Shown in pieces: positions 1 through 29,687 of a stretch of DNA of 64,000 nucleotides. Under the pieces are notes generated by a model. It was not told the DNA's origin. It did not search any database and saw only the letters and a program-made list of their open reading frames with translations. The translations under genes and the position numbers were made by a program. The DNA comes from a virus. Each line of letters opens with the position of its first letter. Within the stretch, counting starts at the first letter, position 1. Location: the IMG/VR virus record IMGVR_UViG_3300030101_004160, positions 774 to 64,773 of that record. One strand, 5' to 3'.

Positions 1-3000
1 CAAAATTTATGCTATTTTGTATTTCTCCTTGTTTTTCTTTTTTACTTACCAAAGCAACGTAAGAATCAAAAAATTCATTAGATAGTTTTCTCCAAGACTT
101 TTCTTGTACTTCTTGTTGTGTGTATTTGAAATTCATATGCACACTATCTCCGTCTAAATCTGCCCCCCAGTATTTACTTACCCAAGAAGGTATTGTTATG
201 TTTGATGTAGGAGTGTCTCCAATTTTTTTATGAAATCCTTTTACAATAAATACCGCGCTACTAACTTTACCATGCGCAGGAACTCTTGTTCCAATAAACA
301 AATCTCCTACTTTTACGCCCTGGTCTTGCATATAGCCTGGAATAATAGCCTCAGAAGCTACTATATTTTCGTTACTTATGCCTTCTATTGCAGGCCCTGT
401 GTACAACCCTTTTTGATAAAACTTAAGACCTACACCTAAGCTAGCGGATTGATAAGCTATGGAGCCTTTAGTATACATTTTTGTACCCTTGTGTGTTATT
501 CTACCTATAGCTACTGAATTATATATTGCGTTAAGATATGGGTATCTTGGATCTAATTTATCAAAAGTATTGTCTACTAATACGTCATACACTTCAGAAG
601 ATACAGATGATTTAAAAGAGTCTCTTTCTTTTATTACATCAGCCTCAGTAGAAGAGTCGTTAGCAATCAGAGCTCCACTTCTTTGGGTTTTGTTTTCTTC
701 CATAACGGTCTTACGCTTTTCAAGCATACCAGCTGCAATAGCCTGATCTTCTGTAGAAAGATTAGTAACTAAGTTGTAAAACAATTGTGAAGGAAAAAAC
801 CTTTCGTCTGTTTCTTTGTCTAACTCCAACTGTATACCTAAGCCTTCACCAGACAAACCTATATACTTACCATCACCCCTGTAAAGCTTGTCTTGGGCAG
901 CCATAATTTTATCCATGTCAAAACCATCTTTTATGTCATGTATAACCTCGTCACCTCCCGAATATAATTTAGCAGCAGACTGACTTGCAGCTATGACTAA
1001 ACCACCTTTGCTTCCGTCATCTTTTATTTGACTTCTTCTTGTTCTTAATACTTCTGCAATGTTTTTAAAGTATGGACTAAGCGCTTCTATTTCAGGAGTT
1101 AAGGTGTGTACTGCAAACTTCATGTATGTAGTTCTGCCTTTTAACGAACCCTCAAGTTGTGTATAATGGTATACAAATTTAAATACATTTCCAACTTTTT
1201 GTGTTGTTCCGTATTTTCTTCTAATCATCTCAGCTTCCTCTGGTAAGACATATCCCATAGCATCATTTTCTATAGCTGTTTCATCCTCCCATTTATCTTT
1301 ACCTAAAGTTTCTTCTGCTTCTTTTTCTGTATATATTTCTCCGTCTTTTGTTTCATAATAATCGTTAGTAACAACAAACTCTACCGTAGTGTTTCTATCA
1401 AAGACAGTATGACTAGCGATAGCTCCAGCAGCACGCTTTATATAATCTATCTCGCTGTTTGACTGCCTGTGATCATGCACAAATAATTGTTGTGCCATAA
1501 ACTTATTTGCTATATATGAAGTTAAGAAAGCCTCTACCGCTCCATCTTGATAGTTTTTAATATCTCTATTGTTAACTATTAAATCTTTATTCAACTTTAG
1601 ATAGTCAGTAAATCTTTTACTAATTTCTTTTATTTCAGCTATCTTACCGTTTTTTATAGTATATGGAAATACTAATTTTTTACTCTTTTTATACACATCT
1701 TTATTACGATAAGCAGGGTTGTTTTCTATCTTAGACAATATAAGTTTTGTAATTTTAGGATTGTGTGCCGCTATGCTTTCTACATAATACCTTCTACTTT
1801 TATCAGCAAACACAGCAATAGGTTGCGGGTATCTGATAACAGGTAAATTATCTTTTATACCCTGATTGTAGTTTTTAAGAAATATAAAAAAGTCTGTTAT
1901 AGTTAATTCGTTAAAATTAACATCAGTAAACTTTCTAGTTCTATGGTCTTTGTTTTGTAGTCCACTGGCTTTTTCTACAAAACGCCTCATAAGGCCTGAA
2001 TGTACAGTAAAGTTAAAAGTTTTCTTACCTTCTGTGTTACTGTTTTTCAAAGCCATAGCGCTATATATATTGTTGTCCTGATGCATAATATCGTTCTTAT
2101 CTAGCTCTACACCTTCGTTAAATATACGCTCTACATTATCAGCTCTATTTCTTAACCCGTTTTCTTTATTAAATATACTAACACCGTCCATATCTACATC
2201 GTTAACCATAGATAAATAATTTGACGCTCTAGACATTATTACACCATGATTTAGTATGGTTCTAATATCTCTTTGTTTTCCATAAAAAGTACCTAAAACT
2301 TTTTTCTCACCAAAGTTGTCTTCAAAGCCTTTTTCAACTCCACGATGCACCATCATTATAACGTTGTCTAGTGCTGGATTTCCAAACTTATTTATCTTAT
2401 GATCAAAAAGTATATTAGGAACTGACTGTCTTTTACCTTTATATATCATTGTTTGATTTAACATAGCATCTATGTTTATCAATTCTTTTTTACTGCTTGC
2501 TGATAACAATCTTTCAAACACAGTCCTAGCGGCTTTGTATTTAGCAGTATCGCTAAAGTTTTTCTTTTTAAAGAAACTGTCATAAACTTCTTTTACTTGA
2601 TCAGATATTTCTTGATTATTTTCTAAAGAAGATACTATATTATCTACTACCATTTTCTCTACAGTAACATTTGTGCTTTCGTATCTAGTCCAAAATCTAT
2701 CTTTTTCATTTGATATTGTCAACACGTTATGCGCTAAAGTTTCTATAGTTATTCCCTCTAAAGAACTTTTTATTTCTAATAACTTTGCGTTTGTTAACAC
2801 TTGATCCCCACCATATACTCTATCTAATATATTGACCACAGCTAGTACTGCGTCGTTTTTAGATTTTCTTACTTCTTGCGGAAAGTCAAATGGGTTTTCT
2901 TTTGTTTGTTTTGCTAACTGCATTAGCGGTGCTAAAACTTTTTTTGCATCTATTCTTCCGTTTTCTTCAACACCATTATTGTACACCTCTACTATCTTTC

Positions 3001-6000
3001 TAACAAACAAAGACGTTGTGCTAGGCAGGCCTATATCTTTTTCTTCTATGTTGTTAATATCGTTTTGTATTTCCGACTCGCCCTCTACGTCTTCTTTTTT
3101 TCTTAAGTCTACGCCTATTGCTTTCAAGTCTTTATCTAAAACAGAATCAGCCTTTGCTATATCTTGCGGTCTTGTAGTTTGTAGTATAGCTGCCTTTACA
3201 CCTGCTCTTATGCTTTCTATATCTGCATCCTGGACAGTTAAGTTAGAATCATCTGCTATAGATTTCATTACTAAATCTGTGACCTGATCTGCATTCCTAC
3301 CTTCTCCTATATTTTCAGATATGTAAAAAGAAACTGCTGAAAAAGATGAGTTTTTAACTAATTGTTTTTTTGACGCCCTACTGATTGCTCCGTATGCAGA
3401 ATTTCTCATTTTAGGCATAGTGCTTCTTTCTGATCTAAAGTTTAGCAACACTGCTTTAATAGCGTTTTCTAAATCTAGGCTAGCTATATCTTTTACAGAT
3501 AAATTTAATATCTCTCTAGCGTCTTCGTCATTAGTTATACCTTTTACTTCTTTATAAAAGCTTATTAAATCTTGTTCTAACTTCTTTTGTGCAGCACTAC
3601 CTTCTATAACTGTGTCAGGATTACCATTACTATACGCCTCTAATGTTCTTGTAAAAGTCTCTTCTAATATATGTTTTTGTTGACTATCTTTTATATCTTT
3701 TGCTCCTTTTGCTTTTAGTTGTGTTCTTAAAGATAAAAACAAATCGTTTATTTTAGCATTGTCTTTTATTTTTATTGCTTGACTGATATTGTTAGCTATA
3801 CTAACTAAATCATTGTCTGAATTTATATCACTGTTATTGATAATATTTCTATAAAACTCACCTAATGTTAAAGTTTTGTTTTTATATTTTAATAATATCA
3901 ATTCTGGATAATCTTGCTTGGTCCTATTATATAAACTAGTTTTGGGTAAAAGTTTTTTTATTCTTTTCATTAATGGAGTATCCTCCATCATTCCATAATA
4001 TATGTGCCCTGCCTCATGTACAATGTCGCCTTGGAGTACAGAATCTGCGTTTATAAATACAGTAGATCCAATAGCCAACGAAGTTGCCTCCTGACCATAA
4101 TCATCAAATAATTTGTTGTACACTAATACCCCTTTTGCTCCTGGAAACTTTTTGTTTACAATCTCTCTTATATAAGAAGACATTATAACACCAGAACCAT
4201 ATTGATATTCTGGACTTATGTTTAATTGAGTAGGTTCAAACCCGTCTAATTCTTTTTGTGTTTTTGTAAAATATTTTAGTATATTGTTTTTTGTATCTTT
4301 TATGCCTTTTACTATTTGATCAATTTTACGTTGGTCTTTTTTCTTGGCTTTTACTGTGGTCTTTTCTGCCTTAAAATCTCTTTGAGCAAGCTTACCTACC
4401 ACCTCGTCATTTATTACAACCTCTATTTCGCTTTCGTATAATAAGTCGTTAAATTCAAAAAACAGCTTACCGTTTTCTTCTACCACATTTTCTTGACCAG
4501 CTACTGGTTTTTTAAGTTTTAATTGAACGTTAACATTGTCTTCAAAAATGTATTTATCTGATTTGCCTTCAAAGTCTCTATATCTTATTGTTTCACCGTC
4601 TTCTGTTTTGACTGTGTAGTTCGCACCCTGACCCTTTTCTACGCTTGGTTTGCTTAATACTCTAGGGCCTTTTTCTAAAGATTCTTCGGTTGATTTATAC
4701 GACTTAGTTTTAGGAACTACTCTGGGCTGTTCTTTTTTTTTTACGTCTTCTTGAGACGTTTCTGTTTTTTCTGCTTTTGCTTTTCTGATTGCCGTATTGA
4801 CATCCCTTGTGTTAATAGTGCCACCTCTGCCCGATCCTTTTATGTTTGTTGCTTGCTCTGGTGTTAGCTCTTCATTTTCTACCGCTTGAACTAATTTTTC
4901 TTTTGCCGTACTTGTTATATTTGCTATATTGTTTACGTCTTCTATTGTTTTTGCTGGCGCTTCGGCAGGCTTTCTTACTCTGTCTACCACCCCTTTAACT
5001 CCTGCCACTGCAGCTGTTCCTAAATCTTTGGCTGCTTGAAGGGCTTTTGTTCCTACTTCTGTTACCCTTTCTGTTATAGTTGGTTTTGGTTTTGCAGCTT
5101 CTTCTTGAGCTTTGGCTTCAACCTCTGCTGCTTCTCTAGTTTCTTTTTGTTTTGCCCCTTCTTGTGTAAAAGCTTCAAAGTCTCCTTTTTTCAAACCTTT
5201 TTCTTTAAACCTTTTATCTCTTTGACCTGTTGCTTTTGCAGTTGGAGCTTTGTCTATTTCTGCTGTGTATAGGTTTTCTAATCTTAACTCTTCTGCCTTA
5301 AGTTCGTTTTGTAATCGTTCTAGTGTTTTGTTATGTTCATCTTCTAGTAAAGCTAATTTTTTATCTAACTTTGTTTTATCTGATTTAATTATGTTTTTCT
5401 GATTTTGCATCCTTTCTTCGTGCTGCTCTATTTCGTCAGCTATCTCACCTTCTTTACGAGATTTTCTCATTTCTATGTAAAAAGCTTGCTCTGCTCCTGC
5501 CTGTGTTAAGGTTGAATTGACATGATGTTTCTCATAATTTTTTTCTGCTTGTTCTATTTTTGTTTTGTATTCTAGACCGTTTTCCTCTGATATTTTACCA
5601 TCAGATACAAGATTATCTACTATAGACATAGCTACAGAGCCATCGCCTTCATAAAACCATATTTCGTTTGCTAATAAGTTGTCCACAGCGTTCTGCATTA
5701 CCATTCTTTGATCTGCGTTTTGATTGGCTGCAGCTTCTTTTATCATGTCTATAGCGTTAGTATAGCCGTCATTTTTTTTGTCTAACATTGCTTGCCTCTC
5801 TGCAACTCCATCAAAGTATCCTCTTATACCACCTGCGGCTCCACCCATACCAACAGAAGACCAAAATATATCTCTTATTTCAGGCTTGATTCCATCAGCA
5901 TTCTTCACCCATTGGGTCATTGTTTTGTAGTCTTTTCCTTTTGCCTCTTCTATTGCTTTGTATTTTATCCACTCTTGATAAACCTCTTGTACACCTTCTG

Positions 6001-7189
6001 TAACACCTTCCACACCAGCATAAGCCCCCACGGCAGTCAGATTCGGAGCTGCTTTTCTTAATAAAGAACTTACAAGCGGCCTAGACGCATTTTTAATATT
6101 TGTTTTTGTTACAGGCGCTCTTAATATTCTTCCCATTAGACCTCTACCAGCGCCTCCAAATAATATTCCATATTGAAGCGCGTCTACACCAGCATAATAA
6201 AAATTATCTTTTATTACGCCTGCAGCTGATTGCGCTGCTTCTTCAGGCGTGAAACGTGGCTGACCTGTGTCTTCATCTATATCGTTTATCATTTCTTGAT
6301 ACGTTTCACCAGCCAAATATAATCCTTCTGCACGGTTTGCTGTAATACCTCCACCTATAAAACCAGATACGTTTCTTGCTAATTTTGTTGGCGCTATACC
6401 TTTTTTTCCTGCGTCTACTCCTAAATACTGTAGTGCTCCGCTTCCCTTTTTTCCTTTTTTACCTGCTTTTAATAAAGTAGCCCCTTTACTCATCGTGCCT
6501 AATGTGCCAGATGTTTGCAAACCTCTAAGTGTGCCTTGTCCATACTTAAAAGCTCCTTTTAGTATTAAGTTACCAAATCTTGTACCTGCAGTATAAGGTA
6601 TTACGAACGAAGCAGAGTAGGGTGCTAGCCTAGAGGCTTTTGATGTCCAAAATTCAGGTTTGAATAAATCATCCCAATTAAAATCTTTTAAATCTTCAGA
6701 TAATACAACTAAATTTTCTTGCTGTAACTCTGTACCTATTTTTTTAAAATAGTCGCCCATTGGTGTGGTCCCGTCGGTTTCTTTAGGAAATAATCTTGCG
6801 TTTACATAATTCAACGCGTCACCTGTTCCTACGGCTAAATCTCCTACACCTGCAGCTAACCCTCTAGCTACATTTTGTCCTGGCGAACTAATTAAGGCTG
6901 CTGGGTCCATAAACTGTTGTTGTGGAGCATCACCAAATCTAATTCTGTCTGAAGCAGCAAAAGTATCATCTTGTATGTCGGCAGCAGCAGCACCCCTATA
7001 ATAACTTTCAGTAGCTGGATCTAATTGTGGCTTCATATTAACGCCAGACAATAAATCATCAAAAGACATTGTTTTCTTTGTCATCTGCTCGTCATACTGC
7101 CCTATTGCTTCTTCTGGGGAAGGAACATCAGGCTTAATAGCCTCTTCACCAAAGAATCCTCTAAATCCAAATTTATCTTCTTCAGCCAT
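1..7189 (-). CDS. giant multidomain virion protein, putative virion RNA polymerase (partial, runs off left edge)
   Basis: An uninterrupted frame of 2396 codons starts at ATG 7189, overlapping the stop of the preceding gene by one base, and continues past base 1. Seen: a Gly/Ala-rich hydrophobic N-terminal part (about residues 60-420), a charged coiled-coil stretch (about 530-650), the zinc-peptidase-like motif HEAGH at 1058-1062, a conserved-looking DYIKRAAGA stretch near 1915, then RVPAHGKVSS (2302-2311) and GADLDGDSVHM with DLDGD at 2344-2348. Family knowledge: multisubunit-type RNA polymerases have an Arg-x-Pro motif about 40 residues before the Mg-binding AD[FL]DGD loop, and crAss-like phages package a single-chain polymerase of this class in the virion. 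The position after internal virion protein genes fits an ejected protein. Inference: virion RNA polymerase fused to other ejected domains. Alternative: a large polyvalent phage protein with a chance or inactive DxDGD. The C-terminal part is outside the window. Confidence 0.6.
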   Translation of the reverse strand, partial: MAEEDKFGFRGFFGEEAIKPDVPSPEEAIGQYDEQMTKKTMSFDDLLSGVNMKPQLDPATESYYRGAAAADIQDDTFAASDRIRFGDAPQQQFMDPAALISSPGQNVARGLAAGVGDLAVGTGDALNYVNARLFPKETDGTTPMGDYFKKIGTELQQENLVVLSEDLKDFNWDDLFKPEFWTSKASRLAPYSASFVIPYTAGTRFGNLILKGAFKYGQGTLRGLQTSGTLGTMSKGATLLKAGKKGKKGSGALQYLGVDAGKKGIAPTKLARNVSGFIGGGITANRAEGLYLAGETYQEMINDIDEDTGQPRFTPEEAAQSAAGVIKDNFYYAGVDALQYGILFGGAGRGLMGRILRAPVTKTNIKNASRPLVSSLLRKAAPNLTAVGAYAGVEGVTEGVQEVYQEWIKYKAIEEAKGKDYKTMTQWVKNADGIKPEIRDIFWSSVGMGGAAGGIRGYFDGVAERQAMLDKKNDGYTNAIDMIKEAAANQNADQRMVMQNAVDNLLANEIWFYEGDGSVAMSIVDNLVSDGKISEENGLEYKTKIEQAEKNYEKHHVNSTLTQAGAEQAFYIEMRKSRKEGEIADEIEQHEERMQNQKNIIKSDKTKLDKKLALLEDEHNKTLERLQNELKAEELRLENLYTAEIDKAPTAKATGQRDKRFKEKGLKKGDFEAFTQEGAKQKETREAAEVEAKAQEEAAKPKPTITERVTEVGTKALQAAKDLGTAAVAGVKGVVDRVRKPAEAPAKTIEDVNNIANITSTAKEKLVQAVENEELTPEQATNIKGSGRGGTINTRDVNTAIRKAKAEKTETSQEDVKKKEQPRVVPKTKSYKSTEESLEKGPRVLSKPSVEKGQGANYTVKTEDGETIRYRDFEGKSDKYIFEDNVNVQLKLKKPVAGQENVVEENGKLFFEFNDLLYESEIEVVINDEVVGKLAQRDFKAEKTTVKAKKKDQRKIDQIVKGIKDTKNNILKYFTKTQKELDGFEPTQLNISPEYQYGSGVIMSSYIREIVNKKFPGAKGVLVYNKLFDDYGQEATSLAIGSTVFINADSVLQGDIVHEAGHIYYGMMEDTPLMKRIKKLLPKTSLYNRTKQDYPELILLKYKNKTLTLGEFYRNIINNSDINSDNDLVSIANNISQAIKIKDNAKINDLFLSLRTQLKAKGAKDIKDSQQKHILEETFTRTLEAYSNGNPDTVIEGSAAQKKLEQDLISFYKEVKGITNDEDAREILNLSVKDIASLDLENAIKAVLLNFRSERSTMPKMRNSAYGAISRASKKQLVKNSSFSAVSFYISENIGEGRNADQVTDLVMKSIADDSNLTVQDADIESIRAGVKAAILQTTRPQDIAKADSVLDKDLKAIGVDLRKKEDVEGESEIQNDINNIEEKDIGLPSTTSLFVRKIVEVYNNGVEENGRIDAKKVLAPLMQLAKQTKENPFDFPQEVRKSKNDAVLAVVNILDRVYGGDQVLTNAKLLEIKSSLEGITIETLAHNVLTISNEKDRFWTRYESTNVTVEKMVVDNIVSSLENNQEISDQVKEVYDSFFKKKNFSDTAKYKAARTVFERLLSASSKKELINIDAMLNQTMIYKGKRQSVPNILFDHKINKFGNPALDNVIMMVHRGVEKGFEDNFGEKKVLGTFYGKQRDIRTILNHGVIMSRASNYLSMVNDVDMDGVSIFNKENGLRNRADNVERIFNEGVELDKNDIMHQDNNIYSAMALKNSNTEGKKTFNFTVHSGLMRRFVEKASGLQNKDHRTRKFTDVNFNELTITDFFIFLKNYNQGIKDNLPVIRYPQPIAVFADKSRRYYVESIAAHNPKITKLILSKIENNPAYRNKDVYKKSKKLVFPYTIKNGKIAEIKEISKRFTDYLKLNKDLIVNNRDIKNYQDGAVEAFLTSYIANKFMAQQLFVHDHRQSNSEIDYIKRAAGAIASHTVFDRNTTVEFVVTNDYYETKDGEIYTEKEAEETLGKDKWEDETAIENDAMGYVLPEEAEMIRRKYGTTQKVGNVFKFVYHYTQLEGSLKGRTTYMKFAVHTLTPEIEALSPYFKNIAEVLRTRRSQIKDDGSKGGLVIAASQSAAKLYSGGDEVIHDIKDGFDMDKIMAAQDKLYRGDGKYIGLSGEGLGIQLELDKETDERFFPSQLFYNLVTNLSTEDQAIAAGMLEKRKTVMEENKTQRSGALIANDSSTEADVIKERDSFKSSVSSEVYDVLVDNTFDKLDPRYPYLNAIYNSVAIGRITHKGTKMYTKGSIAYQSASLGVGLKFYQKGLYTGPAIEGISNENIVASEAIIPGYMQDQGVKVGDLFIGTRVPAHGKVSSAVFIVKGFHKKIGDTPTSNITIPSWVSKYWGADLDGDSVHMNFKYTQQEVQEKSWRKLSNEFFDSYVALVSKKEKQGEIQNSINF

Positions 7190-9237
7190 TATTTTAAATT
7201 AATATATTGTGATATTCTTCTTCCTAGTCCTTTTGAAGCCTTATAAGACTGTGGGTCTAAAGATCCTTTTCTATAAGCATCATAATTACCTTGTTTGATT
7301 GCTTCTAACATTAAATCAAATCCCTCCATTCTATTTATTAATCCATATTTTAATTGCTGAGCCTGGAAGGCCATTAATTGATATGGATTTGTAGCCTGTT
7401 TTGTTGGGTTGCCCTGCGCATCTCTTTCTAAAACCACTGGAAAATCTTTTTGTTTTTGCGAATTTACATATAAGTCTGCAATTATCATAGGAATTGCTTG
7501 TTGAATTTTATTTGTAGGCACACCTGCAGTAGAAAGACCTATTCCTAATGAATTGTCATATCTTGCTACTATTTCGTCTAATTCGTTTTGACTGTCTAGC
7601 TTCATTTGTTTTAACAGAACCGACTTACGAGAATCTAGTTGTTTTTGCTGATAACCTCTTTGTGTTACTTTTTCTTCATATGTAGCCATCTGATTTAAAG
7701 TTTTACTTAGCGCATCTGAATCCAGCTTACTGTTAATAGCCGTTCTTATGCTTGGTATACCCATATCAACTTTTTTATAGTAAGGGTCGTCTGGACCTAA
7801 ATCTTTATCTATTAACTCTGCAACTAAAGTTGGCTTGAAAACTACATCTCCATACTCATCCTTAAGTTTTTGTTTTTCTTTTTCGTTTGCAACATCTACT
7901 AGCAGAAAACTATCTCCTTCTGCATTAGTTGCTTCTAGTGCAACAAAATATCCGTTTAAATTCAAGTCCATTGTTTCTGACTCTTGCCATAAATCTTTAC
8001 CTCCAAGCCATGTAGAGGCTATATCTTGATCTGTTATTTTATGCCCTCTTCTGTCGTATGTATCTTTCATTTGTACACCATAAATCTTTCTGTCTGACGA
8101 ATTGTATCTTGGCGTTTTACCATCATCATATGTACCTGCCCATGAATTTGTAAATGCTGTTTCAAGATTACGGTCGTTTACTAATACTTGGCCTCCAGCT
8201 ACTAGCTGATATCCTTTAGATACAGGTGACCGCATCGTACTGTGTGGCGCGCTACTTCTGTCATACCCTCCAAGTCTATCCCAATTTTGACCTGATTCGC
8301 TGTCAAATACATCTTTGTATGATATCCCTTGATCTTGCAGTCTAAAGTAATCACTACCTGTACTTATTCCGTTTTTCCTAGTAGCATCTATTGCTGTCTG
8401 AACTTCTGTAGCATAATCTGTTTCTACATCCTTTGCGCCGAACATTGATTGTCCTGCAAAAGTTTTATTGGCTGCATTGTAATTTAATTCTTTTCCTAAC
8501 CAATTTAACATATCTTGTGTACTAAAAGAATTTGCAGGCCTTCCTAAATCATTTACCATATCTGCTTGCACGGAAGAAAAATTTTCAGATAACACGGTTT
8601 CTAAATCAACTTGTTGTGATTTATCCATTTCTTTTGCTACATTGTCTAAATAAGGACCTCTAACGCCTGTGTATATAAAATTATCAGTTTCTCCATTTTT
8701 CCAAGCTTGATATCTGGAGTGCGAATTACTTGTAAGATATTTTTTGTTTTTACCATCCATCGCATACCTTTTATAAAGTTCCAAAGCTTGAAAGTTTCTT
8801 TGAGCTCTAAAAAGTATAGGGTTTCCTTTTGTTGGGTCTTCGCTAGGTGTTGACACTCTTTGTTTGTATGTGTTCAACGCTTCTTGTAGTCTAGGGTCAC
8901 GATAAGCCTGCGCTAGCGACCCATACTGTTTTAAAATTTGCTCTATGTCTGTATATCCAGAATAATCGTGATACCACTTAGCATAATCTTGCGCATCCTT
9001 TTCTCTTGTAAATTTATGAGATGGTGTAAATATATCTGCGTGTGCCGCTTTTGAAAACTCCATCATCTGTTGCGCTAATGCGTTTTGCCTATCTGTCTCT
9101 CTTTGCTGTAAAGCAAATTCCTGTTCCTGCAACTGTAAGTTTCTTAACCTTTCTTGATCACGGTTTTGACTTATTTCATTTGCAGATTGTAGCGGTCCAG
9201 TTAACGCTTCAAAAAATCCATAATCTATTGTTGACAT
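7189..9237 (-). CDS. putative internal virion (ejection) protein, 682 aa
   Basis: I do not recognise a named family. The N-terminus is rich in Gln, Glu and Arg (residues about 20-65, with LQLQEQEFALQQRETDRQ) and should form a coiled coil; the rest is hydrophilic and mixed alpha/beta, with no signal peptide or membrane segment. It lies between the 521-residue protein (6 bases upstream) and the giant protein (one-base start/stop overlap downstream), in the slot where podoviruses keep proteins that sit inside the capsid and are ejected with DNA. Length, Gln-rich helices and position support an internal virion protein; this is inference from context. Confidence 0.5.
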   Translation of the reverse strand: MSTIDYGFFEALTGPLQSANEISQNRDQERLRNLQLQEQEFALQQRETDRQNALAQQMMEFSKAAHADIFTPSHKFTREKDAQDYAKWYHDYSGYTDIEQILKQYGSLAQAYRDPRLQEALNTYKQRVSTPSEDPTKGNPILFRAQRNFQALELYKRYAMDGKNKKYLTSNSHSRYQAWKNGETDNFIYTGVRGPYLDNVAKEMDKSQQVDLETVLSENFSSVQADMVNDLGRPANSFSTQDMLNWLGKELNYNAANKTFAGQSMFGAKDVETDYATEVQTAIDATRKNGISTGSDYFRLQDQGISYKDVFDSESGQNWDRLGGYDRSSAPHSTMRSPVSKGYQLVAGGQVLVNDRNLETAFTNSWAGTYDDGKTPRYNSSDRKIYGVQMKDTYDRRGHKITDQDIASTWLGGKDLWQESETMDLNLNGYFVALEATNAEGDSFLLVDVANEKEKQKLKDEYGDVVFKPTLVAELIDKDLGPDDPYYKKVDMGIPSIRTAINSKLDSDALSKTLNQMATYEEKVTQRGYQQKQLDSRKSVLLKQMKLDSQNELDEIVARYDNSLGIGLSTAGVPTNKIQQAIPMIIADLYVNSQKQKDFPVVLERDAQGNPTKQATNPYQLMAFQAQQLKYGLINRMEGFDLMLEAIKQGNYDAYRKGSLDPQSYKASKGLGRRISQYINLK

Positions 9238-9243
9238 ATTTCT

Positions 9244-10809
9244 TTAATTATTTTTGTTTTGTAACCCTTGAAAAAACTTTCCTGCTGCCGTATAATCAAT
9301 AGGATTTACTTGATTTATTTTATTTGTATTTGGGTTTGCGCCAAGAAAAGTGTTTACTATAGCTCCCACGTTTGTTTTTTTCAAACCAGACAAAGCGTTT
9401 GTAAATGCTGCTGAAGTAAATTTTGCAGCTGCTGATTTATTAGCTTCTTGTCTTTTTATGTCTTCTAGTCTATCTTGTTCTGTTTTTTGTATATCAAAAT
9501 TTTCTTTAAACAGCATCATTTTTTCATATTTATCTGCATTTTTTCTTTGTATCTCATTGTCTCTTACCGCAAAGTCTAATAAGGCTGAAGACCTTTGTGC
9601 GTCTAGCACTCCTGATTGCGCTAGAAACCTAGCCCTTTGCCCAGCTGATCCTCTTACCGCGTTTTCTAAGCCTATTTGATAACTCTTATCTAACTCTTTT
9701 CTAAATGCAACCTCTTCATCTGGATGAAATCCTTGTTTTGCTAATTCTTTTGTTTGTCTTAAATGCTGCATAAATGCTGGAGACAACTCTGGCCTTGCTT
9801 GTGGCTCTATTTGCTTCATAGCTGCTTTTAACCCTTTTTTACCCATAACATATGATATTATAGCTCCTGGGCCTCCTATATTATCTATAATAGAAGCAGC
9901 TCCTTGTAACAAAGATTTACCAGCATTGCCTATTGTTTTTGCTCTATTTTGTGGCGTGTCCTCAACCTTTTTTTGTTTAGTTACTACTGTCTTATCTGTT
10001 CCAGTACCAGCGTCAATGTCTACAGTATCAGGAATAGCGTCTTCATCTTGATCTATAATAGGTTGTTCTCCTACTGGCCGTACATCTTCTCTTTCATCTA
10101 AAGGAAGTGTTGGCTGTTCAGTAACTACTTCTTCTTCTTGTGGAAAATAAATAGACCTAAATTTTTTTACTTTGTCTTCAGGTGCAAATTTTAAAAACCC
10201 AGCTAGAGTCCCTCTACCCTCATCAGTTAGCGGTAATTTGTTATCTATTATTATATCAATAGCTTTTGTGCTGTCTAAAGCGTTAATAGCATCCTCATCT
10301 AAAGGTATTGTTTTGTCACCTCCCTGAAACCTTTCTGTTATTTGTTCTAAAGTTATATCTTGATTGGGTAGTTCTGTTCTTTCTGGCACCGAGTCTTTGT
10401 GTTTAGAATATAAGTCTGCTACATTAGTAAACAAAGATGTTGTAATAGACCCTTGTTCGTCTCTTTTTATTTTTGAATACTCCCTACCCTCGTCAATTAA
10501 ATCTAACTCTAGTAAAGACTTGTTAGGATTTTCTTTTCTTAATTCATCAAACCTATCTTGTAATCTCTGCTGGCCAGTAAACTCTCCTTTCAATGTAGTC
10601 TCTATTCCAGTTTTGTATATCTGCTCATATGCAGATTCAAGTAAATCTAAATCAGCAGAATCTTTGTATTTTTTTATAATTTTTTTTAATTCAACTACAG
10701 TATTTCCTTTTTCTCCTGTAGTAACCCAGCCTGAACCTGTAAATCTTCCAATAGAGTCAAATAACTTTTGGGCATCTTTTTTTGCTATTTCTTTAGTTAT
10801 TTCCGCCAT
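9244..10809 (-). CDS. putative internal virion (ejection) protein, 521 aa
   Basis: No named family recognised. The N-terminal half is highly charged and helical, the centre (about residues 225-290) is acidic and linker-like (PTLPLDEREDVRPVGEQP, then IDQDEDAIPDTVDIDAG), and a Gly-rich segment (about 295-330) precedes a long Gln/Arg-rich helical C-terminal half. It shares a one-base start/stop overlap with the upstream 381-residue gene, so the two are probably translationally coupled. The helix-linker-helix composition and position among tail and giant genes match proteins ejected from the capsid in podoviruses. That function is inferred. Confidence 0.45.
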   Translation of the reverse strand: MAEITKEIAKKDAQKLFDSIGRFTGSGWVTTGEKGNTVVELKKIIKKYKDSADLDLLESAYEQIYKTGIETTLKGEFTGQQRLQDRFDELRKENPNKSLLELDLIDEGREYSKIKRDEQGSITTSLFTNVADLYSKHKDSVPERTELPNQDITLEQITERFQGGDKTIPLDEDAINALDSTKAIDIIIDNKLPLTDEGRGTLAGFLKFAPEDKVKKFRSIYFPQEEEVVTEQPTLPLDEREDVRPVGEQPIIDQDEDAIPDTVDIDAGTGTDKTVVTKQKKVEDTPQNRAKTIGNAGKSLLQGAASIIDNIGGPGAIISYVMGKKGLKAAMKQIEPQARPELSPAFMQHLRQTKELAKQGFHPDEEVAFRKELDKSYQIGLENAVRGSAGQRARFLAQSGVLDAQRSSALLDFAVRDNEIQRKNADKYEKMMLFKENFDIQKTEQDRLEDIKRQEANKSAAAKFTSAAFTNALSGLKKTNVGAIVNTFLGANPNTNKINQVNPIDYTAAGKFFQGLQNKNN

Positions 10810-18608: not shown

Positions 18609-19715
18609 TTATAAATCTAATAAACTATTAGAATCATTGCTTATAGGAACCAAAGTATTCCAAAGCTTGCCTATTTGTTTAATTTCTTGTGACGTAGGCA
18701 TGCTGTCATCTCCTCTTGCTTTGCCACACAGAAAATACCATCTTTTTTCTAATTCTTTGGTAATATATTGTGGTATTTTTCCATTGTAAAATTCTATTAA
18801 TTTCATTTGCCACATAATGTATTGAGCTACAGCAGTTTCGTGACCTTCTTTTACCATAGGATAGCCTCTAGGGTCTGTCGGGTATTTTAAATACGATATA
18901 GTTATCTCTTGTAAATTATCATGTGTAATATTTAATCTATTTCCTTCTAAATAATACCTAAATGCTCTTTGTAAATTATTTGACTGTACACCCACTCTGC
19001 CTCTGTGCACTGACGAGGTTTTTCTTATATCAGAATTTTTATTCAAAGCATCTCCCGCACCAACTCTTACGCTTAAAAGTTTTATATTGTCTTCTGGTAA
19101 TACGAGTTGTTGGTTGCTGTATTTACCTTTACCCCCCGTTAAGGTGTTTGAACTTACCTCTATATTTTCGCCATCACAGGCTAATGTATAGTCATTACCC
19201 TCATGTCCAATTTCTTTTGCAGTTATTGTCAAAACTCCAGTTGTTGTGTCCACACTATATTCAGCTATATCTAATAGTTCTGGGTAGTTATATATTGCTG
19301 ATTTCATGTGTTTACCTGTTGTTCCTCCTGATCCACTTCCTCCTTTTAAACTTTGTATCAAACCATAAGGCTGTGCGGCTAAATCTAACGTAGAGGACAA
19401 ACTACCTGCTTGAATAGTCAATTCATTAGGCAAATAAGCCTGACCTATATTACTAGAGCTTTTAAAATACAATTTTACACCATTAAGAGTTATTGAGTCT
19501 CCTTCTGCTGGAACATCGCTAAATGTTATTGTAGCGCTTGCTTTTGCTCCTGTTGAATTATACGTAGCTTCTTTCTGTAAAAAAGTGTCTCTACTTCCTA
19601 TTAATTTTTCTGCCTCATACGTCCATTCTACAAAATCTTGTATATGATTAGCATAATCTATTAAGCCTAAATTTCTAGATACAGTAGTAAATATTCTATC
19701 AATGTTTATGTGCAT
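18609..19715 (-). CDS. neck/tail adaptor protein with inserted beta domain (368 aa)
   Basis: Residues 1-50 (helical, DYANHIQDFVEWTYEAEKLI) and about 205-368 resemble head-tail adaptor proteins of large podovirus-type phages. Between them, at about residues 58-200, sits a Gly/Thr/Ser-rich module with the pattern ATITFSDVPAEGDSITLNG, later GHEGNDYTLA and LTGGKG. This matches the small beta module seen in many phage sheath and baseplate proteins ('G-D-x-I-T-x-N-G ... G-N-x-[IY] ... L-x-G-G'). It therefore looks like a core adaptor with a surface insertion. Upstream is a small beta-protein gene; downstream, after one base, is the giant tail protein. Function is inferred from position and fold-like patterns. 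Confidence 0.5.
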   Translation of the reverse strand: MHINIDRIFTTVSRNLGLIDYANHIQDFVEWTYEAEKLIGSRDTFLQKEATYNSTGAKASATITFSDVPAEGDSITLNGVKLYFKSSSNIGQAYLPNELTIQAGSLSSTLDLAAQPYGLIQSLKGGSGSGGTTGKHMKSAIYNYPELLDIAEYSVDTTTGVLTITAKEIGHEGNDYTLACDGENIEVSSNTLTGGKGKYSNQQLVLPEDNIKLLSVRVGAGDALNKNSDIRKTSSVHRGRVGVQSNNLQRAFRYYLEGNRLNITHDNLQEITISYLKYPTDPRGYPMVKEGHETAVAQYIMWQMKLIEFYNGKIPQYITKELEKRWYFLCGKARGDDSMPTSQEIKQIGKLWNTLVPISNDSNSLLDL

Positions 19716-20195: not shown

Positions 20196-20588
20196 TTAAT
20201 TTTTATTTATTATTTTTTTTGCATAACTTAGCGGTAAAACCTTACAGTGTCTGTATTTGGGTGGTCTTATCCACATTAATTTTTTGTAGTAATCATTTAA
20301 TATTGGTACCTTAAAAAAAACCGTTTCTCCTTTTTCTTTTGTAGCATGATTGTCTACCCTTATGTGAAACGCCCTGGTATGTAATTTTTCTTCCAAAGTT
20401 AAATATCCTAATTTTTTAGGTAAAACAACTTGACGACTTCTTTCTACTACATCTCTTATTGTAATTTCAAAAAACTTTGTTATTATGCTGTAATAAGTTT
20501 TGTAGCTAATTTTTTTTGAAAATTTACCTTTTATACTTTTAAATATATCTTTAATTGATACGTATTTATCTTTGTACTCGTGCCCCAC
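20196..20588 (-). CDS. conserved phage structural-region protein (130 aa)
   Basis: A basic protein with helical N-terminus (YKTYYSIITKFFEITIRDVV) and the phrase VVLPKKLGYLTLEEK, a 'hydrophobic-Leu-Pro-x-x-Leu-Gly' pattern that I associate with a family encoded beside portal and neck genes in crAss-like and cyanophage-type genomes. I cannot name its function. Its start lies inside the 3' end of the upstream 369-residue gene (23-base overlap), implying translational coupling with neck assembly genes. Confidence 0.4.
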   Translation of the reverse strand: MGHEYKDKYVSIKDIFKSIKGKFSKKISYKTYYSIITKFFEITIRDVVERSRQVVLPKKLGYLTLEEKLHTRAFHIRVDNHATKEKGETVFFKVPILNDYYKKLMWIRPPKYRHCKVLPLSYAKKIINKN

Positions 20589-21675
20589 TTTTTTTCATTT
20601 TTTCGTTATCATCTTGACCGTCAACAATCATATCAGGCATAGTTTTAAGTTCTGTTTGGATTTCTATTTGTAATACTCTTTGAATTAAATCACTAACATA
20701 TTCTAAAGGTATTGGATAAATCGTTTCTGCGTCATCAAATTTTTCTTCATTACTCCAAATAAAATTTTTCATAAAACTAATTTCTGTTGGATTTTCTAAA
20801 ACCATTTGTGCATCACATGAGTATTTCCAAAATATTTTCTTTTCACCTGGACTGTGTAAATCTCCATGATAATTAGGTGATATTTCTAAATTGTTTAATT
20901 TTATGAAATATTGAGGATTTTTACGATTATAACTATTCCAATGTGTTGGTAAAGTAAAGAAGCTTGATCTCGCAGAATGTAAAGAATAAAATGGATCATT
21001 ACTACCTGTAAATTTATTACTTCTGTAAAATAAATCTTCATTGCTTCTTTGATATAAGGATAAAGTCCTGGTAGTTGCGCCGCCTGCAGCTTCGTTTTGT
21101 GCCGTTGTAAAATCATCAGGAAAATGAGTTGATCTTTGTATTTTAACTACCTTTACTAGATCTTTGCCTGGTAAAATTATAGGCTTTGGTATAAAGCCCT
21201 GAAATATACCGAAATTTCTAAAATCACCTTTATATTTTTTTGTACCCCTCAGTTCTCGTCCATATACATCTAGGTTTTGAGCTTCCCTCCAAGTCTGCGA
21301 TGATATGTCTGCAGATATACTACCTAACGCTATAAATTGTCCTGACAATTCACCTGAACTGTCTTTTGGTAAATTTTGTACATATGTGGATGCTGTTGAT
21401 GGCGGACTAGACGCTATATTTTTGTTGTATATATCCCATGCGTTGTCATACACGGCTACGTCACTTAAAGCTGCATTACGAGTTGTTACACTTAGTGATT
21501 GTGTCCATCCATCGTAACGAAATTGATTTTTATTTACTAAATCAATACAAAGTTTTGCTCTATGATAGTGTATCCAGTGTTTAATTTGCTGTATGCTTAT
21601 TTTGTTTTCTAAACTGCTTTGCCCTCCGTAAGCTAGGTTTTTTATATTGTAGGCTATTTCGTTTAATGTAATCAT
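20566..21675 (-). CDS. head-tail connector/neck protein (369 aa)
   Basis: The N-terminus MITLNEIAYNIKNLAYGGQ followed by IQQIKHWIHYHRAKL is a pattern I know from neck or tail-adaptor proteins encoded downstream of capsid genes in Bacteroidetes phages. The rest is mixed alpha/beta, with no membrane segment. It is the first gene after a clear terminator hairpin (21726-21767) and a strong host-type promoter (21698-21731), so it probably opens a neck-tail transcription unit separate from the capsid unit. The start at ATG 21675 gives a leader of roughly 20 bases from that promoter. Confidence 0.5.
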   Translation of the reverse strand: MITLNEIAYNIKNLAYGGQSSLENKISIQQIKHWIHYHRAKLCIDLVNKNQFRYDGWTQSLSVTTRNAALSDVAVYDNAWDIYNKNIASSPPSTASTYVQNLPKDSSGELSGQFIALGSISADISSQTWREAQNLDVYGRELRGTKKYKGDFRNFGIFQGFIPKPIILPGKDLVKVVKIQRSTHFPDDFTTAQNEAAGGATTRTLSLYQRSNEDLFYRSNKFTGSNDPFYSLHSARSSFFTLPTHWNSYNRKNPQYFIKLNNLEISPNYHGDLHSPGEKKIFWKYSCDAQMVLENPTEISFMKNFIWSNEEKFDDAETIYPIPLEYVSDLIQRVLQIEIQTELKTMPDMIVDGQDDNEKMKKSGARVQR

Positions 21676-24643: not shown

Positions 24644-26182
24644 TTACGATGCACTTAAGATACCACAAGACAATGGGTTTCTAACAATGATTCCAGTTTC
24701 TGAAAGCACGTGTGCTTCAAATTTGTCATCAGCATTAGCAGCCAATATTGCTTGTTGGTCATAAGGATTCACCATTCCAGCTACATACTTCTTGATCATA
24801 CTTCTGTTAACTCCTTCAGCTCCTTTTGTAATTAACTCTACGTTAGATACACCAGTAGACTTACCGAAGTCCATAAATACCATCTTTGCAGATTCTCTTA
24901 ATCTGTTGTCACCAAATGAATTAGTTCCACCAGCTACAGAATGCAAGTTAGGATCATCAAACACAGGGCAGTGAGCAATAGTAATTTTATTACCTAGCGC
25001 GCTGTATGATACGAAGTTAGCTCCTAAGTCAACATCTCCATTTACACCTGACATAGATCCTCCTGTAAACGCGCCCGCAGGTGCAACAATAAGATCTTTC
25101 ATAGCTCTATGGAATGCTAACCTACCTTCAGTTCCAGTAAATACAACAAACTCATTTCCTTCAGCTGATTGTGTATTTAATGAAATTTTAGCAATAAACT
25201 CAGTAATGATATCCTCAGTTAATGAACCATAAGAGTAAGTTGCTTGGTTAGCAGAATCAATCTGAGCCAATAAACCATCTCCTGTAATAATTGATGAAGC
25301 TTGAGTTCCTGAAGTACCTAGTGCAGAAGAAGAATAAGCTCCTGGTCTCTGAATAGTTGTGTCAGTTACCGACTTTCTTCCGTACCATCTTTGCAATTCT
25401 TGTTGATACATAAACTCATCCATCATCATTTGTTCTCTTGTAAAGTACCATAATCTTGAACCGTTATTTTCAATCCAAGTTACATCAGTAAGGTCTTTAC
25501 CTGTAACAGAACACTTTTTACGCATTGTAGTCAACCAGTTAGTATGCGTTGCAGGGTACATAAAGTTTTCACCCACATCAGCACCGTCTGATCCATTAGG
25601 GAATGCAGAACCAATAGATGCTACTATAGCTTCGTCAGCAATATCACTTGGTAATAAAGCCTGTGCTGTTGCGTCTATCATTTCAAATTGTATGATATGA
25701 TCTGTTGCAGCTCCACTTGAAGAAGTGTTAGCTACTGGATCAGCAATAACGATTGCTGTAGCTCCAGATTGGAATCTAACCATATCAAATTTATTTAAGA
25801 AGTTACCTGTTCTATCATTAGATCCAGTATCACCTTCTATAATTAAGAAGAACTTATCACCATTAGCATCTGCATCATCTATTGTTCCGCCTGTTGCAGT
25901 AACAGATCCAGAAGCTGTAAATGAAGTTCCATTAGTTGAGAAAAACCCAACATTAAAACTTGGACGATTATATCTTCCCATAACCTTCCATTCAAAAGAG
26001 TTGTCACCTAAGACTTTCTCTGTAGCGAAACGACCTGTTCTTTCTAAAAGATATGTCGCCGCATAACGAGGAAACTGTTGAATAAGCGTTCTTGCAATCT
26101 CTGGGTATTGCATAAGTGCTGTATTCAAAGCATTCTCGGCTGTTGTTCCAGAACCATAAGTTCCTTTAAATAATTTAGCCAT
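24644..26182 (-). CDS. major capsid protein (HK97-fold expected)
   Basis: 512 residues. The N-terminal region (TALMQYPEIARTLIQQFPRY then LLERTGRFATEKVLG) is followed by an Ala/Gly/Thr-rich body and repeated order of beta and helical segments, as in the large capsid proteins of crAss-like and Cellulophaga podoviruses. Position is decisive: portal, acidic scaffold, this gene, then decoration-like genes, all co-oriented. The gene has the most regular, fully spelled codon pattern of the window and is flanked by a leader and hairpins, consistent with high expression. No prohead-protease gene was identified nearby. Confidence 0.75.
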   Translation of the reverse strand: MAKLFKGTYGSGTTAENALNTALMQYPEIARTLIQQFPRYAATYLLERTGRFATEKVLGDNSFEWKVMGRYNRPSFNVGFFSTNGTSFTASGSVTATGGTIDDADANGDKFFLIIEGDTGSNDRTGNFLNKFDMVRFQSGATAIVIADPVANTSSSGAATDHIIQFEMIDATAQALLPSDIADEAIVASIGSAFPNGSDGADVGENFMYPATHTNWLTTMRKKCSVTGKDLTDVTWIENNGSRLWYFTREQMMMDEFMYQQELQRWYGRKSVTDTTIQRPGAYSSSALGTSGTQASSIITGDGLLAQIDSANQATYSYGSLTEDIITEFIAKISLNTQSAEGNEFVVFTGTEGRLAFHRAMKDLIVAPAGAFTGGSMSGVNGDVDLGANFVSYSALGNKITIAHCPVFDDPNLHSVAGGTNSFGDNRLRESAKMVFMDFGKSTGVSNVELITKGAEGVNRSMIKKYVAGMVNPYDQQAILAANADDKFEAHVLSETGIIVRNPLSCGILSAS

Positions 26183-27377: not shown

Positions 27378-29687
27378 CTATAGCTTTTCTGCTGCTCTTT
27401 TGATGTCTGCTGCTGTTGTTCCTGCGCCTTTTGCAACCGCCGCGCTATCTTCTTCTTTTTTAGCGTCTTCTTCTCTATTTTTTCTATCTATGTAATAATC
27501 TGCTGCTTTTTTATCCATATCTAAACGCTGTTTAGTATCATGCATATCTCTATTAGCATCTGCCTGAATTTTAGCAACTTCAAGTCTTGAATTAGCGCTT
27601 ATCTCAGCCACTTGTAATTTGCCTTTATTTTCTAACTCTTTAAGCTGTGCTTCGGCTTGGAATTTTTGTTGAGCTGCTTCAGCTGCCGCTTGTTGGGCCT
27701 GCACCTGCTCTTGCATTTTTTGCTGTTGTTGTTTTTGCATTTCAGTCATAGCTTGTTCTAAGACTTTTTCTGCCTCAGTCATGGTGTCTGACTTAAGAAC
27801 TTTAATTACACCTAACATATCTATATTTCCTGCCTGTAAGGCTGCTTGTGCTAATTGTTGTACTACTTGTTTCATAGAATCATCCTTACCACTATCTCCT
27901 ACATAAACACCAAAATCTTGTAAAGCAATATCAGGCATAATATTTAAAAATTTATAAGCTCCATCTCCTAAAATCATACCAGCTTTCTTACCTCCTGCCC
28001 AACAAACTTTCATAAGATTACATACCCTCTCCATTACTCTTTGTTTTGTTTCTGAGTGCGAATAAAACCAACTTTCGGTAATAGTTGCTGACTGAACAAC
28101 ACTTCTTTGTACATTACCAACGTATTCATACTGACCAACAGCCCCTTCTCTTTGTCTTGACACTCCAGATATCTGTCCTGCCATTTCTTCCAACATTAAT
28201 TTTAAATTAATTAACTGCTGTACAGATTGTGACAAAGTAAAATCTATCTGCTGGAACTGATTAAAAGTTTGTATTTGGTTTCCTTCATCTTTAGAATTTA
28301 TAGGTATTATACCGTCTGTTTTTAAGTGATAAAGAACTTGCTGTATGTCCATACCTACATTAGTTGGTAATTGTGAAACATCGTAAACTACCGCCTTACC
28401 ACCAGAACGAGCCATAGCTAATTCTATTTGATAAACCACTATGTTATACAGCATTTGTATGTTGTCTAACATGTCTACCATAGACATACTATTTCCTGTT
28501 GTGTTATTATGTATACATCCCACGTATGATAAACCAGTTTTTCCTGGATCATCTACGCTTCTTACTTGGTTGTCTCTTCTGTTTGCGTTTACAAGTATTT
28601 TTCCGCCTATCATTGTTGCCTCCCATATATCATCAACCCATTTTGTTTCTATAGTCTCCCCTTTTCTTGGCTTGTAAGTATCTTTTACCATTTTTCTAAA
28701 AGGTTTATTTGGGTTGTATTTGTTTTCAGATAGTTTAAATTTAATTGCACGTAAAGATTTCCATTCTGCTGTTAAAACTCTAATTCTTGACTCTTTTCCG
28801 TGTGAAACATCTACCCATTCAAAAGTGCTGCTGTTGTAGTCAGACAAATCGCCACCATGGTATAAGTTTCTCATTTTATCTAGCTCCATTAAATCATCGG
28901 TTGTCAGGCTATCTTTAAATTCATCGTTTATTTCGTTCAGAGAAAGGTATCTCTCTTCTCCAACCCAACAAGCGTCATCAAGATAGTCTGAATGTATAGA
29001 ATCATCGTAAACTATAGTTCTAGGGTCTACTCTTCTTACAAAAGGATCTCCATTTTGTATATCAACTTTATAAAATGATTTACCTGTTACTAACAAATCT
29101 CTGAAGCCCTCTTTATAAACGTCTTTTAAATTATATCTATTTGTAACATACTCTAATCCGTCTTGTGCTGTTTCCTCTACCATTTCACGGTAGTTATATT
29201 TCATATACGTTTCTATATCCTCTGGTATAGGCAACCCTGAGTCGCCCTGAGCCACAATGTCAAAACTCATTTTTTCTTTCATCTCTTTGTGAAATTCATC
29301 TAACAAGTGATGCATCATTAATTTTACTTTATGATCATGTTTTCTTATAACCGCAGATTTATTAACTGTAGTTACCTTCATATCTAAAGGTCTTCTTAAT
29401 TCTTCACCTACAAGTAAGTCTATTTTAGGTGTGATAATGGGATAATTAACCAATCTAGCTGGATATGTGAGCCCGTATTGCTCTGTTATGTATTTATAAT
29501 CACCTTGACTTAAAATACCATTATATATTTGGTAGTTTCTTATATCTTTAGATCTTGAAGTGGCGTAAGAACCACCTTCAGCGCCCATATAGCTAGTTAT
29601 AGCTAATAATACTGATCTACACCAATCTTGTGTTTTTTCGTTCTCTGGCAAAACCATTGAAGGCATTGTGCTGTACGTATATTCCAT
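27378..29687 (-). CDS. portal protein
   Basis: 769 residues. The N-terminal third carries the portal-like core LVNYPIITPKIDLLVGEELR, a conserved segment VTGKSFYKVDIQNGDPFVRR with VDPRTIVYDD, and a long helical region near 440-520 (MLDNIQMLYNIVVYQIELA). The last 130 residues form a Gln/Ala/Lys-rich coiled coil, matching the barrel or crown extension of large portals. It sits directly after the terminase gene (4-base gap) and before scaffold and capsid, the canonical packaging order. It forms the dodecameric ring at the capsid vertex through which DNA is packaged. Confidence 0.8.
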   Translation of the reverse strand: MEYTYSTMPSMVLPENEKTQDWCRSVLLAITSYMGAEGGSYATSRSKDIRNYQIYNGILSQGDYKYITEQYGLTYPARLVNYPIITPKIDLLVGEELRRPLDMKVTTVNKSAVIRKHDHKVKLMMHHLLDEFHKEMKEKMSFDIVAQGDSGLPIPEDIETYMKYNYREMVEETAQDGLEYVTNRYNLKDVYKEGFRDLLVTGKSFYKVDIQNGDPFVRRVDPRTIVYDDSIHSDYLDDACWVGEERYLSLNEINDEFKDSLTTDDLMELDKMRNLYHGGDLSDYNSSTFEWVDVSHGKESRIRVLTAEWKSLRAIKFKLSENKYNPNKPFRKMVKDTYKPRKGETIETKWVDDIWEATMIGGKILVNANRRDNQVRSVDDPGKTGLSYVGCIHNNTTGNSMSMVDMLDNIQMLYNIVVYQIELAMARSGGKAVVYDVSQLPTNVGMDIQQVLYHLKTDGIIPINSKDEGNQIQTFNQFQQIDFTLSQSVQQLINLKLMLEEMAGQISGVSRQREGAVGQYEYVGNVQRSVVQSATITESWFYSHSETKQRVMERVCNLMKVCWAGGKKAGMILGDGAYKFLNIMPDIALQDFGVYVGDSGKDDSMKQVVQQLAQAALQAGNIDMLGVIKVLKSDTMTEAEKVLEQAMTEMQKQQQQKMQEQVQAQQAAAEAAQQKFQAEAQLKELENKGKLQVAEISANSRLEVAKIQADANRDMHDTKQRLDMDKKAADYYIDRKNREEDAKKEEDSAAVAKGAGTTAADIKRAAEKL

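Follow-up and report, generated by a model that had tools for sequence, protein, structure and literature searches.

In phage phi14:2 (Steigviridae), the RNA polymerase (RNAP) gp66 (g066, YP_008242290; PDB 6VR4) consists of 2180 aa and is encoded separately from gp67 (1797 aa) and gp65 (1421 aa). The g067-g066-g065 block comes after the structural genes, and the annotation of its products draws on MS/MS proteomics. For phi14:2 and crAss001, the RNAP is described as packaged with cargo proteins and as serving early-gene transcription, and ejection with partial unfolding has been proposed (PMC7886860, PMC10172136). The RNAP-associated proteins gp47, gp49, and gp50 were found in crAss001 virions (PMC10172136). 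In the p-crAssphage type of the Intestiviridae, the block is made up of two proteins (1957 and 4070 aa in CrAssphage LMMB; 2020 and 4245 aa in crAss002). Here the gp66-like and gp65-like parts are fused, and in LMMB a zincin is, by annotation, fused to the RNAP-associated N module. Suoliviridae and the Flavobacterium phage Fpv1 have a large first ORF and a smaller second one (4551 and 2007 aa in cr55_1; 4401 and 1596 aa in Fpv1). The catalytic motif lies far from the N-terminus of the first ORF, and in Suoliviridae an HExxH motif is found upstream of it.

Outside of the crAss-like phages, gp96 of phage P23-45 is an RNAP fused to the tail tape measure protein (PMC10770324). As is predicted for the protein analyzed here, gp96 is a virion-delivered two-barrel RNAP inside a giant fused chain; however, it comes from another phage group, is a clampless and more distant RNAP, and is joined to a tape measure protein rather than to the crAss block. 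The vRNAP of coliphage N4 is a T7-like single-subunit polymerase and not a two-barrel enzyme. It resembles the protein of the present lineage in being a giant single chain; one report describes the N4 vRNAP (Schitoviridae, ∼3,500 aa) as a giant single-chain RNAP that is ejected from the virion (PMC12633501).

Here, we analyze a giant gene from an uncultured crAss-like lineage. We consider it very probable that its product is a virion-packaged, single-chain, two-barrel DNA-dependent RNAP. This prediction is based on homology and fold similarity of its core to gp66, on the retained catalytic motifs, on gene order, and on a gp65-like C-terminal module in its relatives.

The giant gene, its relatives, and its neighbors

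The window, i.e., the whole stretch of DNA analyzed, is 64,000 bases long and is taken from a virus record (IMG/VR) of 65,046 bases; the window start falls inside the giant gene (Table 1). Past the window start, the record continues with a run of 10 N followed by 254 extra codons that are read in a different frame and reach the end of the record. This scaffold gap (L001:765-774, record G000) lies to the left of the window start and inside the giant gene, and the frames differ on either side of it. Because of the assembly gap, the window copy of the gene is incomplete and its C-terminal module is not seen. Two IMG/VR scans gave 24 loci with relatives, a few of which share contigs. Each complete relative is one ORF of 3698-4100 aa, and identity to the window protein ranges from 37 to 66% over the aligned part. 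No relative turned up among 84,980 genomes of bacteria and archaea, and tblastn searches of 50,697 phage records with the giant protein or with the C-terminal module of a relative found nothing.

Table 1 Features of the giant gene and of its neighbors, in window coordinates
Feature	Residues of giant protein	Window position	Strand	Basis or remark
Giant ORF		2..7189	minus	ATG 7189; first 2396 codons in window, remainder beyond window start
N-terminal module, likely gp67-like / RNAP-associated protein	1-720	5030..7189	minus	hhalign; weakest of the three modules
Zincin-like segment	∼990-1200	3590..4222	minus	motif only
HEAGH	1058-1062	4004-4018	minus	HE.GH pattern
EE-x-F motif	within 1175-1184	3638-3667	minus	conserved downstream of HEAGH
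Predicted DPBB-B, beta-like barrel	∼1927-2119	833..1411	minus	region aligned to known crAss RNAP profile
Predicted DPBB-A, beta-prime-like catalytic barrel	∼2234-2393	11..490	minus	VIA-align of window model
RVPAHGKVSS, R-x-P motif	2302-2311	257..286	minus	aligned with RIP..G..S of crAss RNAPs
DLDGD, predicted Mg-binding loop	2344-2348	146..160	minus	corresponds in alignment to DFD[IV]D of known crAss RNAPs
682-aa protein, putative virion cargo/ejection		7189..9237	minus	synteny alone
521-aa protein, putative virion cargo		9244..10809	minus	position alone
crAss muzzle protein, 2213 aa		11966..18607	minus	Pfam PF25731 E 1.1e-138
crAss ring protein 1		18609..19715	minus	PF24228 E 9.5e-24
crAss ring protein 2		20566..21675	minus	PF25702 25.7 bits, just short of the cut-off of 27; phrog_9863 E 3e-8
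crAss major capsid protein		24644..26182	minus	PF23898 E 1.1e-38; tblastn ∼27% to crAss MCPs
Portal protein, P22-like		27378..29687	minus	PF16510 E 2.2e-16; ∼30% to crAss portals

Based on the muzzle, ring, capsid, and portal matches, we assign the phage as a distant member of the crAss-like group. By tblastn, its structural genes are ∼24-31% identical to those in crAss records, and the muzzle protein matched crAss stabilization and virion structural proteins. The crAss capsid family was found in 9 of the 17 records scanned, and the remainder may be fragments. The 2213-aa muzzle protein is larger than g071, the 1340-aa virion structural protein of the phi14:2 tail region. The first-pass annotation had noted that the giant gene follows internal virion genes. 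It lies after the muzzle gene and two genes that are putative cargo genes by their position, as in crAss phages. The gene for the 682-aa protein adjoins the giant gene in the relatives as well. When the genes beside the giant gene were compared with known cargo proteins, no sequence match stood clearly above the reversed-sequence controls.

Catalytic motifs and predicted fold of the probable polymerase core

The first-pass annotation had pointed to a pair of RNAP-like motifs in the giant protein, and both RVPAHGKVSS and DLDGD were re-read from the ATG at 7189 on the minus strand exactly at the residues claimed, with 42 residues from the Arg to the first Asp. Could such a pair arise by chance in an unrelated giant protein, e.g., a tape-measure or polyvalent protein? 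The loose pattern R.P-38..42-D.D.D does turn up in 22 of 5000 shuffled versions of the ORF (∼0.4%), whereas the fuller crAss-like consensus R[VIL]P..G..S...G[AS]D[LFY]D.D appeared in none of 5000. Conservation across relatives is a stronger argument than rarity in shuffles: R-x-P and GADLDGD are found at identical spacing in every ORF that covers the site (22 IMG/VR loci, some on the same contig), with L015 as the exception. Since the motif is invariant in relatives and the profile, profile-profile, and fold evidence given below concur on a crAss RNAP, we regard a chance motif as barely credible. In L015, a frameshift or stop splits the giant gene before the catalytic region (L015:2-2227 and 2205 onward), possibly through an assembly error.

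When the giant protein and its relatives were compared with Pfam, PHROGs, and PDB sequences by plain sequence search, no polymerase family came up. A search of the source record with the cellular beta-prime family PF00623 gave no hit (14 of 14 controls positive). The placement in an RNAP family came solely from fold and from crAss-specific profiles. From the catalytic barrels of 15 known crAss RNAPs, we built an HMM, which matched residues 2300-2387 of the giant ORF with an E-value of 3.2e-6; no other ORF in the window came to a comparable level, and the next best hit, at E 0.011, was a reversed decoy. With hhalign, the family core aligned to the known cores over 611 columns (Prob 99.1, E 8.3e-19, where this and the other profile-profile E-values below refer to a single pair and are not database-wide). 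The alignment with known crAss RNAPs runs on past the barrel into a common region around LDNAK. The sequence of gp66 by itself gave a weak match to the family profile (Prob 29) that lies downstream of the motif; the 15-protein profile was needed.

We built two AlphaFold2 models, both of moderate confidence and both based on ∼20 related sequences. The first covers residues 1197-2396 of the window protein (pLDDT 70.8, pTM 0.65) and the second covers the relative L012, reaching ∼460 residues beyond the motif (pLDDT 66.1, pTM 0.57). In Foldseek, the window model matched 6VR4, the structure of phi14:2 gp66, with E 1.7e-14 and prob 1.00. This was the sole PDB match with E <0.001 and was followed by QDE-1 and RDR2, all of which are two-barrel polymerases; the match to the P23-45 RNAP was weak (E 1.2). 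VIA-align superposed the window model on 6VR4 over 726 residues with Z 12.5. Model residues 1038-1197, which include DLDGD, aligned with the catalytic barrel of the largest subunits of Pol I/II/III and archaeal RNAPs at Z ∼8. The L012 model gave a similar picture, with Foldseek E 5e-16 and TMq 0.54 against 6VR4, Z 15.2 over 830 residues at 5.0 Å, and RDR2 next at Z 6.2. Its first barrel (residues 327-519) matched DPBB designs and DPBB proteins at Z ∼3.4, which is weak alone. The same region, DPBB-B, lies inside both the 6VR4 alignments and the hhalign match to known cores. In the models, therefore, the two-barrel match with DLDGD in the catalytic barrel that the first-pass annotation had looked for is found, and homology supports its virion-RNAP-like reading as that of a two-barrel virion RNAP.

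The giant protein thus shares with phi14:2 gp66 the predicted fold over both barrels and beyond, the R-x-P and DxDxD motifs, and the genomic position behind the structural genes, at ∼12-13% identity in the structural alignment. It differs in the motif itself, which in gp66 is DFDID with a spacing of 39; most known crAss RNAPs likewise have DFD[IV]D and an R-to-D spacing of 39. This slight departure from other crAss RNAPs, together with the other roles of other parts of the block, would fit a two-barrel protein that has degenerated or been repurposed, retaining the fold for an ejection or structural role and lacking polymerase activity. Against this, R-x-P, GADLDGD, the barrel lysines, and their surroundings belong to the most strongly conserved stretches of the chain in relatives down to ∼37% overall identity, and in DPBB-B the Lys residues of VFKFVY and YMKFAV are invariant among relatives. 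Such strong conservation speaks for predicted catalysis being retained, and we judge the repurposed protein to be most unlikely.

Two-barrel polymerases that are not carried in the virion do exist in phages, as with gp64 of P23-45 (PMC10770324), and the giant protein might similarly be made only after infection. However, the structure that it matches best is that of a virion polymerase, and other two-barrel RNAPs score far lower. The gene also sits in the structural block behind the muzzle and putative cargo genes, an arrangement found in phi14:2 and other crAss phages, and homologues of the block proteins have been detected in crAss virions. We therefore hold synthesis after infection to be highly unlikely. 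As a virion RNAP, the protein would be packaged in the particle, and its chain would pass the tail partly unfolded, with or ahead of the DNA. It would then refold in the cytoplasm and transcribe early genes without the host RNAP. The two barrels would form the active site, with the catalytic Mg ions bound by the three Asp residues of DLDGD; the flanking modules would act in ejection or be associated with the polymerase. With this reading, an RNAP that Pfam and PHROGs do not recognize is placed in the crAss virion polymerase family, to which it would add a divergent set of ∼20 sequences.

Modules flanking the core

The chain runs from the N module through the zincin-like motif and the catalytic core to the gp65-like C module. 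When the N module was compared with known N modules by hhalign, we obtained Prob 96.4 and a pairwise E of 1.2e-9 over only 87 columns, and controls with swapped modules gave Prob 0.1-0.2. Because hmmsearch found nothing in either direction and the match spans just these columns, we call the gp67-like identity of the module likely.

The C-terminal part is seen in the relatives. It aligned by hhalign with the C-terminal portion of phi14:2 gp65 and related proteins over 356 columns (Prob 99.6, E 6.3e-24), and a gp65-like HMM, built without the already fused Intestiviridae, matched it with E-values of 5e-22 to 3e-12. In the relatives that cover both parts, the known-C and known-core HMMs match the same giant ORF. 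Within the loci, the gp65-like HMM hit the giant ORF only, save for one marginal 102-aa ORF (E 0.005); therefore, no separate gp65-like gene was found in them. Taken together, the giant gene appears to be a colinear fusion of gp67-like, gp66-like catalytic, and gp65-like modules, with the evidence being weaker for the first.

Between the N module and the core lies the HEAGH motif that the first-pass annotation had reported in the same chain. The motif is real and at the residues given in Table 1, and HE.GH with the downstream EE.F is present in every relative that covers them. HExxH segments occur in many large phage proteins. The zincin-like segment has no Pfam match, and known proteins score no better than reversed ones against its profile. 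What does not stand is the novelty of the join, since LMMB and ctbg_1 have annotated zincin fusions in a comparable position. It is conceivable, if rather unlikely, that the whole polymerase block is one polypeptide of ∼3,700-4,100 residues which the embedded zincin would cut into ejection and polymerase parts. If true, the cut would occur during assembly or after ejection, and the chain would be an injected transcription machine that processes itself.

The giant ORF of L003, and that of L010, carries an insert of ∼250 residues at ∼950-1200 with a second zincin-like motif, HETIH...HEFLTYSL. By eye, it is like HEIMH...HEFISEVI of phi14:2 gp65.

Arrangement of the polymerase block among crAss phages

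We surveyed the block in 16 annotated records from Steigviridae, Suoliviridae, Fpv1, and Intestiviridae. The N module was assigned by position and annotation, and one further Steigviridae record, cr116_1, was covered only to a point before the block end. With the N module, core, and C module denoted A, B, and C, Steigviridae have A + B + C, as the three genes of phi14:2 exemplify, with related arrangements in other Steigviridae. Suoliviridae and Fpv1 have AB + C, i.e., the long first ORF and a separate downstream gp65-like ORF. Intestiviridae have A + BC, where the C module of the core/C fusion was confirmed by HMM and the N module is a gene of its own, unlike in the giant gene, in which it is probably fused too. 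The block is split in all 16 records, and within this set the complete one-ORF form (predicted ABC) occurred in the present lineage alone. The states A + B + C, AB + C, A + BC, and ABC thus form a complete series in the records covered.

The first-pass annotation had held that length and the joined zincin motif set the giant protein apart from known crAss RNAPs. This cannot be upheld, because partial and zincin fusions in Crassvirales blocks are already known and annotated, and a review reports crAss RNAP genes of up to ∼6000 aa. The true difference appears to be that all three block modules lie within one ORF. We are thus dealing with what appears to be a crAss virion RNAP in one-piece form, a known family in an arrangement that is new among the 16 records. 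Given the reported gene lengths, an equivalent one-ORF fusion may occur elsewhere in crAss phages, such as in Crevaviridae, epsilon, or zeta phages. In a one-chain form, the ratio of the packaged modules would be set to 1:1:1, and the passage of a chain of >400 kDa through the tail would need to be explained.

When read with table 11, the RNAP block genes of cr6_1, cr7_1, and cr109_1 (L034, L035, and L037) contain 29-148 in-frame stops, consistent with the stop-codon reassignment reported for gut crAss phages.
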